NCBI RefSeq assembly: GCF_014651675.1
Contig: NZ_BMXI01000002.1
Coordinates: 153,695-217,694, forward strand
Length of the DNA stretch: 64,000 nucleotides
Source of the DNA: Roseibacillus persicicus
GTDB lineage: Bacteria; Verrucomicrobiota; Verrucomicrobiia; Verrucomicrobiales; Akkermansiaceae
Reading direction: 5' to 3'
Shown here: positions 38,967 to 44,600 of the stretch, piece after piece
Layout of the letters: each line of letters begins with the position of its first letter
Numbering within the stretch: the stretch's first letter is position 1
Made by a program: the position numbers and the translations under genes
The notes under the pieces: model-generated
Databases searched by the model: none
Told to the model about the DNA's origin: nothing
What the model saw: the letters and a program-made list of their open reading frames with translations, nothing else

Positions 38967-39710
38967 CTACTGCCGGTTGAGAACGTAGACCGCCGCCCCC
39001 AGTCGGTTTCTTTGATATTCAGTCACTTGTCCGCCGCGAATGAGGCTTTGCAAATTGGCATTGGGATTGGCGGTGGGGTCGAATTTTCCAGCGCCTTGGA
39101 TGAGGTAGGGGATGAGCTTGGGGGCGTCTTCGATATCGGGGACGGGACAACCAGTGGTGCAGGGGACGCGACCGATGAGGCGCTGGGCGCGGCGCTGGCG
39201 GAGCATTTCGCTGGCTTCAGGATTGTAAGAGTGAATGACCACGCCATTGGGCACCATGCCGCGGAGCGTGGGGTCAGGATGGCTGGGTGGGTAGAGCATC
39301 TCGGCGTAGATTCCGCTGACGCCTTTTTTGGAATCACCGGTTTGTATGGCTGTGTTGCCATTCTTCGCGATGCGCACCCCGCCCATGGTGAAAAATCCGG
39401 GAGGGGTCTGTGAGTCCTCGATGCCGAGACCGCCTTTTCCAGTGCCGCAGCGGAAGGTCTCCTTCACTTGGCCGGACTTGCGATCGATGATGTGCATGCG
39501 TTGCGCGGCAGGATCGACCACGAAGAGCCAAGTGGGATCGTAGTCGGGATAGCCCGCTTGTCGTTGGGCGGCGATGGCAGACTCGATGTTGCTCCACTCC
39601 ACACCGACCAATCGGGCCGCAGGCGAACTGCTCGAACTAGACGGACTGGTGGGGGAGCAGGATGGGAGCAGGGGAAGGAGCAATAGGAGGGCAAGAACTC
39701 GGAGATTCAT
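38967..39710 (-). CDS. L,D-transpeptidase family lipoprotein
   Basis: The ATG at 39710 (MNLRVLALLLLLPLLPSC) gives a classical lipobox (LLPSC). The 247-residue product carries YPDYDPTWLFVVDP, CGTGKGGLGIEDSQTPPGFFTMGGV, VVIHSYNPEASE and VPCTTGCPVPDIED, which match the YkuD-like order H...S-x-G-C, so the cysteine of TTGC is the probable nucleophile. It would crosslink or anchor peptidoglycan in the periplasm. The family call is moderate because the block spacing is looser than in classical YkuD. Confidence 0.7.
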   Translation of the reverse strand: MNLRVLALLLLLPLLPSCSPTSPSSSSSSPAARLVGVEWSNIESAIAAQRQAGYPDYDPTWLFVVDPAAQRMHIIDRKSGQVKETFRCGTGKGGLGIEDSQTPPGFFTMGGVRIAKNGNTAIQTGDSKKGVSGIYAEMLYPPSHPDPTLRGMVPNGVVIHSYNPEASEMLRQRRAQRLIGRVPCTTGCPVPDIEDAPKLIPYLIQGAGKFDPTANPNANLQSLIRGGQVTEYQRNRLGAAVYVLNRQ

Positions 39711-39825
39711 GCGGGAAAGATGGGGCCTTCCGGGGCGGTCGTCCAATGCAGAATGCGGTCACCCGCAAGGTGGGCGGCGGCGGAGTTTTCTTGAGAAAGA
39801 AGTCCCTTGGGTTAGAACTAGTAGG

Positions 39826-41013
39826 ATGATGAAGTCTCTATGTGCGCTTTTGGTGTTTCTGGTCGCTGCTGCCGAGGGTCAGGGTTTGAAGGGGCAGTGG
39901 GAGGTCCCCACCGTTTCCGCGAAGAACTTGGACCAATGGCAGGAGTTCATCTTTCCCAGTGGTCAGGAACTCGCTTGGCGCAACATCCGCTGGCATCGGG
40001 AATTGGAGTTCGCGGCGGATGAGGCCAAGGAGCTGGGGCGTCCCGTGTTGCTGTGGACCATGAATGGTCATCCTGCGGGCGAAACCTGAAACAATGGCGT
40101 CAAAGGACGCTGGGAGGTCTGGTCAGACCCCGAGGTGCAGGCGTTGGCGAAGGAGTTCGTTTGTGTGGCGGATGAGTGCTGGGATCTTTCCCCGCCGGAT
40201 TGGTTCAATCGCGAGTGGCTGAAGACCCCGCGCAGCACCCGGCTTTTCGAAAGCTATCTCAAGAAGGCTCCCGAGGGTCTGATTCCGCAGGGCACTTCGA
40301 CCTTTCAGGGCTCTTACTGCATGACCGCGGAGGGCGACTATCTGGGTGGGGCCTTTGCCTGGGTGGACCGGGACCGCACGGTGCAGTTGCTGAAAAGCTC
40401 CTTGGAAAATTTCCGGAAAAAGTCGGATGGCGAGATGAAGCCGGTGCCGGAAAATGAGTTGCCCCTCTACGTGGGCCCCGCGCCCGCGAAGGGTGGCTTG
40501 AAGATTCAACTGGCCTACCGCGATTTGCCCCGGGGCAGCAATCGTTACCCCCAGACCGACCGAATCGAGCGTCCCGTCAATCTGGGCTTCTTGGACCTGA
40601 AGCCGGAGGAGGTGCGCGAGTTTTTACCCGAGGGAAAGGAGGCCAAGACTCTTTCCCAAGCATTGGTGAAGAAGATCTCGCAGGATTGCCTCAAGGATTG
40701 CGCGCGCGGACAATGCAATGTGGATAAAAAGGCCTTCCGAAGCGGCGAGTGGACGGTGAAGGAGTCGGGGCGGCAAGGAAACCTGCGGACTATCGAGTTG
40801 CGCGGAACTTCGAGCCTGGATGGCGGGGGAGTGCGCTTCGAGCCGACGATCTACGGTCAGCTGGAATATGATGAGGGGGAGGGAAAGTTCGTGCACTTCG
40901 ACCTTGTTGCGGTTGGTCAACGCAGTGGGGCCAGTGAGTTCAACTTTCGTCGGGGAGACGAGGATGCGGCCCCGCTGGGAGTGGCATTCCGGCTCTTTGC
41001 GCAGAAAAAATGA
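39826..41013 (+). CDS. Secreted thioredoxin-like protein with in-frame TGA (candidate selenoprotein)
   Basis: From ATG 39826 the frame has a signal peptide (MMKSLCALLVFLVAAAEG), runs to TGA at 40087-40089 (codon 88), then continues in the same frame to the TGA at 41011-41013 (395 codons with the Sec). Just before the codon is PVLLWTMNGHPAGET, a thioredoxin beta strand ending Glu-Thr as in the gene at 1-639; just after come NNGVKGRWEVW, DPEVQALAKEFVCVADECW and TSTFQGSYCMTAEGDYLGG, which complete the fold. The halves make sense only together. Automatic calling would give a short N-terminal ORF and a false start at 40135. A hairpin with a GGUC loop follows the TGA at the right distance. A frameless pseudogene would also explain one TGA, but there is no other damage. 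Confidence 0.8.
40087..40131 (+). promoter_or_regulatory. Candidate Sec codon (TGA 40087-40089) and bSECIS hairpin
   Basis: GGTCT (40116-40120) pairs with AGACC (40125-40129), extended by G113/G114 with C130/C131 around a bulged A115, with the loop GGTC at 40121-40124. The loop begins with G, as in bacterial SECIS elements, and lies 31 bases after the TGA, inside the known range of about 16-37. A second, nearer hairpin (GCGTC 40097-40101 with GACGC 40106-40110) lies 7 bases after the TGA. Both are in coding sequence. Confidence 0.6.
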
Positions 41014-41014
41014 A

Positions 41015-41212
41015 AAAGATTCAGAATCTTTGAACGTCAGGCGGGGTTGAGGGTCTTAACCTTTGAACAGCGAGTTGAACGCCGCTGTTCGTCTTCATAA
41101 ACAAGGGTAATAGCACGTCAGTTTCATCCTTCCGCGAGTGCGGATTTCGGATTGTTTTGACAAGCCGCCAGCTCCGCAAGGACCTGGCGGCTGCTTTGTT
41201 TTAAGAGGGAGG
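41015..41212 (+). ncRNA. Putative structured ncRNA, tandem copy 1
   Basis: This nearly 200-base unit is repeated about 270 bases downstream with small changes. It holds an A/T-rich palindrome (AAAGATTC/GAATCTTT, 41015-41031) right after the upstream stop, an 8-pair hairpin (GAACAGCG 41064-41071 with CGCTGTTC 41083-41090), a small hairpin TCCGC-GAGT-GCGGA, and ends with a strong terminator hairpin (AGCCGCCAG with CTGGCGGCT, then a T-rich run). The conserved core AACAAGGGTAATAGCACGTC has no ORF. I do not recognise an Rfam family, so this is an unnamed small RNA candidate. The palindrome may instead belong to the end of the upstream gene. Confidence 0.55.
41163..41204 (+). terminator. Terminator-like hairpin of ncRNA copy 1
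   Basis: AGCCGCCAG (41163-41171) and CTGGCGGCT (41184-41192) form a nine-pair stem around TCCGCAAGGAC-type loop bases, followed by GCTTTGTTTT. The same element ends copy 2 at about 41433-41472. Confidence 0.7.
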
Positions 41213-41285
41213 GTTATCGCCTCCGATTGGATCTTGCTCGGGGCCCTCTGATGAGAATTTTGGTGTAAAAAGGGAAAAAGATAAA

Positions 41286-41482
41286 AAAGATCCGGAATCT
41301 TTGAACATCAGGTTGAGTTGAGGGTCTTAACCTCTGAACAGCGAGTTGAACGCCGCTGTTCGTCTTCATAAACAAGGGTAATAGCACGTCAGTTTTTCCT
41401 TCCGCGAGTGCGGAATTCGGAATGTTTTGACAAGCCGCCAGCTCCGCAAGGATCTGGCGGCTGCTTTGTTTGGAGCGGGAGG
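41286..41482 (+). ncRNA. Putative structured ncRNA, tandem copy 2
   Basis: This is the second copy of the unit, offset by 270-271 bases. Stem and terminator sequences are kept, while loops and flanks differ; the terminator loop has GGATC where copy 1 has GGACC. One single-base length change lies before the TCCGCGAGTGCGGA hairpin. Its end lies about 160 bases before the sulfatase start. The 70 bases between the copies are not shared, so each unit is discrete. Selection on structure would explain the pattern better than chance repetition of a spacer. Confidence 0.55.
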
Positions 41483-41645
41483 GTTGGAAAGGCCTCCATG
41501 ATTTTACCCTGTGAGACTCGCGGTGCTGAGGAAACAGGGCTATGGGAGAAATTCCAAGGGCGGGTATAGATTGGTCGACTCCGGAGTGTTGATTCCGGTA
41601 GTCCGAGTGATCGAATGGTCCGGACTTTTTCAAATCCTCCTTCTA

Positions 41646-44600
41646 ATGCGCATTTTTTTCCTCCTTTTCGGCCTGGTCTCAGCTCTCCAGTCGGCCCCCA
41701 ATGTGATTTTCATTCTTTGCGACGATTTGGGCTATGGAGATGTCTATAATCTGCATCAGCACACCCGTGACAATGGGGCGGGCGGCGGGATCGCGGGGGA
41801 TGGTCTCATCAATGGGAGCGAAGAAGCCTTTATCTACACTCCTCACCTCGACCGGATGGCGGCAGAGGGGGCGAGGTTGATCCAGCACTACACAAGCGCC
41901 CCTGTCTGCGCTCCGGCGAGGGGGTCGATCTTGCAAGGCCGCGATCAGGGGCATGCGAACATCCGCAACAACTCCTTCGACAAGGTGATCGAAGACAATC
42001 ACACCCTCGGAACGGTGATGAAGGAGGCTGGCTACTACACAGCCTGCATTGGCAAGTGGGGGGTTGGAGGGGGGACCGCTCCCTACGCCGGGCATCCCAA
42101 TCGACGAGGATTCGACTACTTTTACGGCTACATGAAGCATGGGCAGGGTCACGAGCATTACCCGGGCAATGGTGGGACGGTCTTGGACCAAGAAGAGCCC
42201 GTCACAAGTGGTCTCGATCATGCCTACACCACGGACTTGTGGACTGCTCGTTCGAAGAAATTGATTCAAGAACATCATGCCAACGACCCGGAAACGCCCT
42301 TTTTCCTCTATCTCGCCTACGATGCGCCTCACGCCAAGTTGCAGGTCCCGACCCAAGCCTATCCAGCGGGAATGGGGGCGAGTGGAGGGCTGTCCTGGCC
42401 ACTGAACACGAACTCGGGAACCAACGATTCGTGGATCCATCCCGATTATTCCAGCCTCTCGGATTCACCCGCGCGCCATGCGACCATGGTGCGGCGACTG
42501 GATGACTGCGTGGGGGATCTCTTGCAAACCCTTCGCGACCTGGGGATCGATGATGAGACCCTGGTGGTCTTTTCCTCCGACAATGGAACTCACAATGAGG
42601 CGGGAGGGGGCGGGACGGTGAAGCATGATCCCCAGAACTTCGACTCCTACGGCATTTTGGAGGGAATCAAGCGCGACCAATGGGAGGGGGGCATTCGAAT
42701 GCCGACCTTCGCATGGTGGCCGGGTCAGATTGGGGACAACGATGCCACGACTCCCGCGATGGACTCCACCAGGCCCTCCGCCTTTTGGGACTGGATGCCG
42801 ACATTTGCCGAGGCGGCAGGGCTGACTCCTCCCGCTTGGAGCAACGGTGTTTCTTTGCTGCCTGAGCTGACGGGGAGCGGAAGCCAGCAGGACAAGGGCT
42901 ATCTTTACTTTGAGTATTATAATAACGGGTCCACGCCGAATTATGCGGATTTCCCAGTCCACCGGCAGACCCGGCGCAATCAGATGCAGGCCATCTTTCT
43001 CGATGATAGCGACGGGAAGCGCTACAAAGGCATTCGTTACAACGTGGGGGATCATGAGGGTGATGATTTTCTGATTTACGACGTCTCCACCGACCCAAGT
43101 GAGTCCACCGACCTCGCGGCATCGAAGATCGCTTTGCAGCAAAGGATGAAGGACGAGGTCTTGCGCGTGCGGGTGGATGGCGATTATAACCGGAGTTATT
43201 TGACCTCGGAATTTGCTCCGCCGGTCACCTTGCCAAGTATCGTCAATGGCCTGAACTACCGGGCTTACGAGGGCAGCTGGCCTTGGGTGCCCGAAACGGA
43301 CTATCTCACGGCAGTTTCCCGTGGAGAAAGTAGTGGGCTGGACCTGAGCAAGCGTCCGCGTGATGCGCAGTTTGCCCTTGAGTTCACGGGATATCTCCTC
43401 GTGCCTTTGGAAGGAGAATACACTTTCGAGATGACTGCCGATGCGGCGGTCGGCACCGATGCTTCGGGGGCGATGCTTTGGATTCACGATGCCAACGTGA
43501 TCGCGGACGACTTCAATCGTGATGGAAGCGCGCGCACAGGTAGCATGCGTCTGCAGGCTGGCTTGCACCCGATTCGAGTGGCTTATAAACATGAGACGGG
43601 AGCGCGAAGCCTGTCTCTCCAGTATTCTGGCCCGGGGGTGCCTTTGCAGGAAATTCCCGCGGAGTCGTTTTTCATCGAGGGCGATGCAGGGCCCGAGCCC
43701 GTGGCGAGACCAGACCAAGCGGTCACGACGGAATCCGCTTCCGTATTGATTCCGGTGCTTTTCAATGACACCGATGATGGTGCCCCGGCGGAATTATCAA
43801 TCTCCGAGATCGGCGAAGCCTCTCTGGGAACGGCAAGCATCAGCGGCAATCGCATCCTTTACGATCCCGTGCCGGGAAAGTTTGGAGTGGACCAGTTCAC
43901 CTATACGATTACGGATGGGGAGAATCCGGTTCAGTCGCTGGTCACAGTGACGATTGAAGGAAAGGGATCGGTCTTGTCGTCAGACTTCAATGGTCATGGT
44001 TCGGTGGATGGGTCGGGTCAATTCACAGGAATTATCTGGCAGACTGATGGCGTCAGCACCCCATCCAGCACGCTGACTCTCAGTGCGGATGCAGAGGTTC
44101 AGACTGATGGGGCGAGTGCGAATGTGAACCGGATAGCGGTGGATCGGAATATTGATAAACAGGGGCCCTGGAGTGTGGATATCGGATTCACCGCTTCGCA
44201 AAATCTAACCCTTTCCGATCTCACCTTTGATTATGAGTTCATCAGTGGAGCGGGGAATCTCCAGGGGAATGCGCATCCGGGGAGCGGAATCGTCACGGTT
44301 TCGCTATTGGACGGGAGTGCGAGCACGACCCTGACGACCGTGACCCTGCCGGCCCTGGGGGCGGAGACTGCCGCCAATAATTCTGGGACGGGGATTGTGG
44401 CGGACTTTCCAGACTACAATCTAACGACAGGAAGCTCCTATGTTTTGCGTTTTCACGTCACCAGTTCAGTGACCCTGGGAAATAATTTTTCCTTCGATAA
44501 TTTGTCGCTGAACAAGAGCGTTGCCACACCCAGTGTTTTCAATTTCTCCGCGTCCCCGCAGGCGATCGCCGGGACGGGGGATGTCAGCCTGAATTGGTCC

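Follow-up and report, generated by a model that had tools for sequence, protein, structure and literature searches.

An internal UGA codon in a gene of Roseibacillus persicicus is, on comparative evidence, highly likely to be read as selenocysteine (Sec) in an exported thioredoxin-fold protein. The gene (39826..41013, + strand) lies in the 64,000-nucleotide stretch of DNA that was analyzed, hereafter the window, and encodes 395 residues including Sec88, with its own TGA stop codon at 41011-41013 and a frame shared by its relatives. The family occurs in several bacterial phyla and is missing from the selenoprotein lists that could be compared; an earlier mention is possible.

The frame proposed by an earlier, sequence-only reading (39826-41013, TGA at 40087, stop at 41011) was confirmed when the DNA was read again. 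It translates as MMKSLCALLVFLV...RPVLLWTMNGHPAGET-U-NNGVKGRWEVWSDPEV..., with a single in-frame TGA (40087..40089, + strand) that is assigned to Sec88 from the conserved column in relatives and the Sec machinery of the genome. The N-terminus is a signal peptide predicted from the sequence (39826..39885, + strand, approximately residues 1-20, MMKSLCALLVFLVAAAEGQG), with a helix at residues 3-17 in the structural model. In the same taxonomic family, 44 of 260 genomes (own genome included) contained a match. Among the 55 matches, each of which was read individually, 53 (the window included) carried exactly one TGA, located at the motif and followed by an open frame. In a collection of contigs, 121 stretches matched and 94 encoded a relative; the best 80 were kept as named loci, and every one of the 80 has UGA in this column and an open frame after it. 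By record, these loci come from Planctomycetota (38), Verrucomicrobiota (20), Armatimonadota (11), and Kiritimatiellota (1), with 10 unassigned. The search patterns, P[IV]LLW[AT]MN and G[NH]PCGETxN, favor this motif, and neither demands TGA. No Trp was found at the Sec column among the 55 family matches and 80 named loci.

If the TGA were a true stop, the locus would be either a pseudogene or a pair of genes, the second restarting near GTG 40135. Mechanical ORF calling does start one frame at this GTG and end another at the TGA, but all 80 named loci, which span four phyla and unassigned bins, keep the codon, a stop would split one compact thioredoxin fold, the surrounding residues (T-U-NNG) are invariant in alignment A1, and similarity to the 10 nearest relatives continues beyond the UGA, at 29-40% identity over 299-306 residues. 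We consider a true stop extremely improbable.

TGA is the terminator of 13 of the 36 long stop-to-stop frames of the window (uncurated frames, not called genes), the end of the selenoprotein gene among these, so the genetic code is not changed; the relatives themselves end in TGA in 26 of 80 cases. The Sec machinery, for which the sequence-only reading had suggested looking, is complete in the source genome (97.5% completeness): selA (459 bits, contig C21), selB (324 bits, over cut-off, C3), selD (374 bits, C13), and tRNA-Sec (59.6 bits against a gathering score of 47, C16), the last also called tRNA-SeC with anticodon tca by ARAGORN. Another tRNA-Sec candidate also passes gathering, at 47.9 bits, and ARAGORN calls it tRNA-Ser(tga). 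The selD gene has an in-frame TGA in the motif CAGU (C13:136723; locus L048), and SelD is itself probably another selenoprotein.

The presence of the gene follows that of selA. In the same taxonomic family, selA was matched in 42 of the 44 genomes with a relative (own genome included) compared with 28 of the other 216; the two genomes with a relative and without selA (G200 and G243) are 70 and 72% complete. In G196 and G197, the sole relative is a short one without TGA. For 50 of the 80 named loci, the genome was tested for selA, which was over cut-off in 48; it was missing from the L098 genome (1.7 Mb) and the L121 genome (3.1 Mb). Counting against this association, three genomes of the same genus contain selA, and the selenoprotein gene was not found in them.

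In the proposed mechanism, SelB and tRNA-Sec would decode UGA 40087 as Sec, directed by a SECIS hairpin with a GGUC loop starting 31 nt downstream. The hairpin, noticed in the sequence-only reading and found again at the same place, is GGTCT-GGTC-AGACC (40116..40129, + strand), with five base pairs (40116-40120/40125-40129) and the loop at 40121-40124, 31 nt after the TGA; its assignment draws on folding, shuffles, and covariation. In the accessible text of PMC13188914, the SECIS model specifies a loop of 3-9 nt with G in the first two loop positions, an upper stem of 4-16 bp, a distance of 16-37 nt from the UGA, and MFE of at most -7.5. The window hairpin falls within these limits (4-nt GGUC loop, 5-bp stem, 31 nt, and -9.1 kcal/mol for the 24-nt hairpin alone), as judged by the model criteria. 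When synonymous codons were shuffled, with the protein and the codon usage of the gene kept, a GGT-loop hairpin as strong as this one arose in 1 of 300 shuffles; free energy under synonymous shuffling was less discriminating than the loop hairpin (z = -1.9, p = 0.03). Dinucleotide shuffles folded as well in 4 of 200 cases for the 50 nt from the TGA and in 34 of 200 for the 24-nt hairpin alone.

The family and named-locus sets overlap; taken together they comprise 131 genes, of which 119 remained once identical 63-nt stretches from the TGA were merged. A GGU-loop hairpin with a stem of at least 4 was present in 76 of these 119 genes compared with 21.7 expected with protein and codon usage fixed, and in 72 compared with 12.4 expected at a score of at least 10; 43 had no GGU-loop hairpin by the criteria used. 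Counting against a structured element, the mean free-energy z across genes was -0.49 compared with -0.17 in control stretches. The GGU lies at offset 34 in 35 genes, 22 in 20, 25-26 in 19, and elsewhere in 2, and the register changes at least twice on the tree, where it was scored for 51 of 106 rows. Of 69 genes, 34 use TCA for the Ser that follows Trp, compared with a TCA share of 7.4% among their other Ser codons. The 34 genes with TCA form set A4, in which this selection fixes the closing pair; in it, the score for covariation exceeds that of all 500 shuffles, as does the number of double-change cells (21), and four pairs show double changes, a count reached in 79 of 500 shuffles. With A4 slid by +3, there were 20 double-change cells against 21, but only 30% of the cells paired. 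In set A6 (32 Akkermansiaceae-group rows, 30 distinct, with the loop AGGUU in 20 and another loop at the same place in 12), pairing extends to 94.8% of cells, and none of 500 shuffles attains the covariation score; in set A5 (26 offset-25 rows), pairing is 82.2% and covariation is weak (34 of 500 shuffles). A smaller hairpin of uncertain role, GCGTC-AAAG-GACGC (40097..40110, + strand), lies 5' of the SECIS-type hairpin and has 81.8% of its cells paired in A4; it was rejected as a second SECIS part given its little covariation there. No Rfam family was found at E ≤ 1 over 39700-41700.

The TGA might also be read by other means, through reassignment across the genome or through simple readthrough that inserts Trp or a different residue. 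Readthrough would equally leave the frame open, but TGA closes other frames of the window as well as this gene, the gene follows selA, and a covarying SECIS-type hairpin comes after the TGA in two of the three groups tested; such a reading is hardly credible. The conserved column, the machinery, and the hairpin all point to Sec, as had been suggested, and none of the observations named beforehand as contrary (a true stop or Trp in homologs, or absence of selB and tRNA-Sec) was made. Sec decoding appears as sure as comparison allows.

AlphaFold modeling of the window protein together with 50 relatives yielded a mean pLDDT of 93.1 and pTM of 0.89. The thioredoxin fold recognized in the sequence-only reading was borne out by this predicted model: the domain (39961..40428, + strand, residues ~46-201) matched 3f9u with Z = 12.5 and rmsd 2.3 over 110 residues, and then 1sen (11.6), AGR2/AGR3 (10.5), DsbH (9.9), and DsbD-gamma (8.9). 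The C-terminal domain (40489..41001, + strand, residues ~222-392) is an antiparallel β-barrel in the AlphaFold model, without a clear structural relative. Modeled alone, it reached a pLDDT of 89.6. Foldseek gave no match at E ≤ 0.001 for either this domain or the whole model; in structural comparison, the best Z was 7.6 (OmpA), with 0 of 1000 chains at Z ≥ 8, and the best E-value in a PDB profile search was 0.55. Five polar residues of the barrel (R232, D233, N252, D291, and Q296) are invariant in A1.

The inferred Sec occupies the redox position. In HMMER alignments to 3f9u (E = 0.0024) and 3ira (E = 0.005), the Sec column falls on the first Cys of CxxC, and the position of the second Cys is Gly in the selenoprotein family (UNNG). 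The Sec column likewise falls on the first WCxxC Cys in all 12 distant TGA-less relatives of the Akkermansia type that were read; these match over the thioredoxin part alone and are without the five-residue loop insertion. In nine short relatives, with frames of 257-276 aa, a Cys lies at the Sec column or one column off, with an alignment doubt of one column. The TGA-less matches covering the motif were chosen by eye among the matches listed, and the 13, 11, and 14 regions taken in this search for Cys forms include the second gene of the own genome and some rows with TGA. Eight full-length TGA-less relatives from Planctomycetota (L212-L219) cover the motif: as judged by eye from the translations, none has Cys at the Sec column, and the site holds Asp, Ser, or altered loops. 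Thus, of the expectation that relatives would carry Cys or Sec at this position, the Sec part held; Cys was found in distant, domain-level or short relatives and not in full-length ones, where it is a usual, though not strictly defining, mark of selenoprotein families. A TGA-containing copy lies 0.6 kb from L213 and another 3.7 kb from L212; the eight proteins, without Sec or Cys at the site and two of them close to a Sec copy, are possible pseudoenzymes.

A potential partner Cys lies upstream of the Sec. Among 106 tree rows, the last Cys within the six residues before Sec is at -2 in 70, -4 in 20, -1 in 5, and -3 in 4, and it is absent from 7, among them the window copy. Here, Ala84 (40075..40077, + strand) occupies the partner Cys position of the nearest relatives (CGETU, CKETU), and all 10 other rows of A1 have Cys. 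On a quick tree built with the motif columns left out, in which L075, L067, and L066 are on long branches, the position of the partner Cys changes at least nine times, compared with 32, 35, and 34 changes in three of the shuffles. The three C-terminal Cys residues of the window protein were considered as a general stand-in for the lost partner and rejected given that the other six partner-less rows disagree, with 0-1 such Cys in five and 3 in L075. Five loci (L065, L068, L070, L071, and L073) form an apparent subfamily of the same architecture with vicinal Cys-Sec (NCUQNG).

A second Sec-type thioredoxin candidate is present in the own genome (L198 591-1808, + strand; contig C23 near 56423), with a signal peptide-like start (MKAFLPFLALALTVFAEEN) and vicinal Cys-Sec (FGNFDEEFC-U-ANG). 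The motif EE[YF]C-TGA-ANG of this candidate recurs in L235 (G217) and L236 (G267), and a Pfam search with the L198-type candidate gave no match at E ≤ 0.5.

We infer export, a role for the moving Cys, and, from the fold, a selenol oxidoreductase function. The product would be an exported oxidoreductase whose thioredoxin fold has the AGR2/ERp18/DsbD-gamma shape and carries a fused C-terminal β-barrel; in it, Sec would replace the first, attacking Cys of CxxC, and the second position is Gly. In most relatives, the Cys 1-4 residues upstream could resolve the oxidized selenium as a selenenylsulfide. The window copy appears to have lost this partner and therefore most likely works with one selenol and depends on a different thiol for resolution, for instance, and speculatively, its own Cys 288, 292, or 297 or an outside reductant. 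Judging by the fold, likely substrates are disulfides, peroxides, or related oxidized substrates outside the cytoplasm; for disulfide reduction in particular, we see the chances as even. Alternatively, Sec might serve a chemistry other than disulfide reduction here, with the protein acting as a peroxidase or in the handling of selenium or metals. Peroxidases can have one-selenol sites, and the invariant polar residues of the barrel could bind a ligand; the fold matches are disulfide exchange proteins, which argues the other way, though a shared fold shows no function. We regard this alternative as plausible and somewhat doubtful.

Beyond the own family of bacteria, 118 of 392 genomes in a Planctomycetota sample matched in the A3 search, and most strong ones among the matches listed carry one TGA, counted per match and not placed at the motif row by row. 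A contig scan with the window protein alone found no relative, whereas relatives were found with an alignment carrying X in the Sec column. In a sample of the own phylum, two of 337 genomes gave an A3 match, namely the own genome and G076, the latter over 23 residues, so the selenoprotein family is rare in that sample. An order-wide A2 search matched 242 of 386 genomes, many weakly and over the thioredoxin domain only (for example, the Akkermansia type). No conserved gene neighborhood was found among the 80 loci and the window: only two clusters reach five loci, the upstream extension of the gene itself (6 loci) and one neighbor gene, presumably ThuA-like (5 loci), and they therefore give no operon clue. 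An in-frame upstream stretch of at least 90 residues is present in 13 of the 80 loci; in seven (L077-L082, L089), it looks like a jelly roll by eye, with a signal peptide-like start in several, and the upstream part of L079 had no Pfam match at E ≤ 0.5. The protein of L106, a relative in the planctomycete Poly30, had no match in plasmids. At the end of the window gene starts a tandem duplicate of ~210 bp (41005-41215 and 41276-41485, 92-93% identical) with hairpins, for which no further copy in the genome and no Rfam family was found.

The sequence-only reading could match the product to no named selenoprotein family, and in NCBIfam and Pfam the window protein reaches the cut-off of no family. 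NCBIfam release 20 gave no family at E ≤ 10, and in Pfam, Thioredoxin_7 (PF13899) scored 16.8 bits against a curated cut-off of 27. PF13192, the domain of the small thioredoxin-like selenoproteins Sec.1 and Sec.2 in the accessible text of PMC5330540, had no match at E ≤ 10 to the 395-residue window protein. Table 1 of PMC13188914 (119 families and subfamilies, 2026), compared by name and not by sequence, has no entry with the motif and architecture of the window family. The family was likewise not found in the accessible parts of selenoprotein literature including PMC9312934, PMC12013277, PMC5330540, PMC2398784, PMC1794560, and PMC4807772, or in the titles and abstract openings of the papers listed in literature searches.

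The gene could still be a divergent member of a named Sec family, Trx7/PDZ (NF041199) or VPGUxxT (NF041382/NF041383), all thioredoxin-like by name. Single relatives among 25 in A2 match these weakly: one matches NF041383 (E = 0.00054), three match NF041382 (best 0.045), and two match NF041199 (best 0.043). The window protein itself matches none of the three at E ≤ 10, two relatives score 11.3 and 13 bits against the NF041382 cut-off of 350, and the motif is unlike those in Table 1 of PMC13188914; membership in a named family is distinctly unlikely.

For what we take to be a separate family, we entertain, with more doubt than confidence, a broader reading: a large, cross-phylum, exported family that is essentially Sec-obligate, in which Sec replaced the attacking Cys of an ancestral CxxC thioredoxin. 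The resolving Cys would have shifted upstream, where its place varies between -1 and -4 when it is not lost, and full-length members losing Sec would have become Ser/Asp pseudoenzymes, not Cys enzymes. Sec obligacy is held less likely because distant relatives, matching at the domain level, have Cys at the Sec column. If true, it would imply chemistry beyond that of a thiol in this scaffold, and search methods needing Cys homologs would miss such a family. Nearly all selenoproteins have Cys homologs, on which one class of finders relies, according to the accessible text of PMC13188914, and the authors of deep-Sep state, in that of PMC12013277, that it may miss selenoproteins without them. This family, widespread and with no full-length Cys form among the relatives read, is an example of what can escape such methods, and it offers a test of why selenium is kept, that is, of the advantage of Sec over Cys here. 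The wandering partner Cys and the three SECIS registers are natural variants for studying mechanism and SECIS movement within coding sequence.

In domain fold, the closest known proteins are AGR2/AGR3, 1sen (which we take to be the ER protein ERp18/TXNDC12), DsbH, and DsbD-gamma, which make up most of the best 18 rows (Z from 8.3 to 12.5). They differ from the window protein in sequence (10-21% identity) and have no such barrel in the matched range, and the two aligned chains, 3f9u and 3ira, are without Sec at the site. Trx7/PDZ (seleno)proteins, which are predicted only, share a Thioredoxin_7-type domain with Sec; they have a CxxU motif (PMC13188914, Table 1) and, by name, a PDZ domain, whereas the window family has UxxG, an upstream Cys, and a β-barrel. 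The VPGUxxT families are also thioredoxin-like and similar in length (349 profile positions), and a few relatives match them weakly over the thioredoxin domain, but their motif differs. FdhA, SelW-like, GrdA, and GrdB, presumably proteins unrelated to the window family, resemble it in occurring mostly or only in Sec forms. In the accessible text of PMC1794560, these four have very few or no Cys homologs in Sec-using organisms. Unlike in that comparison, the full-length TGA-less relatives of the window family that were read carry Ser, Asp, or altered loops in place of Cys.
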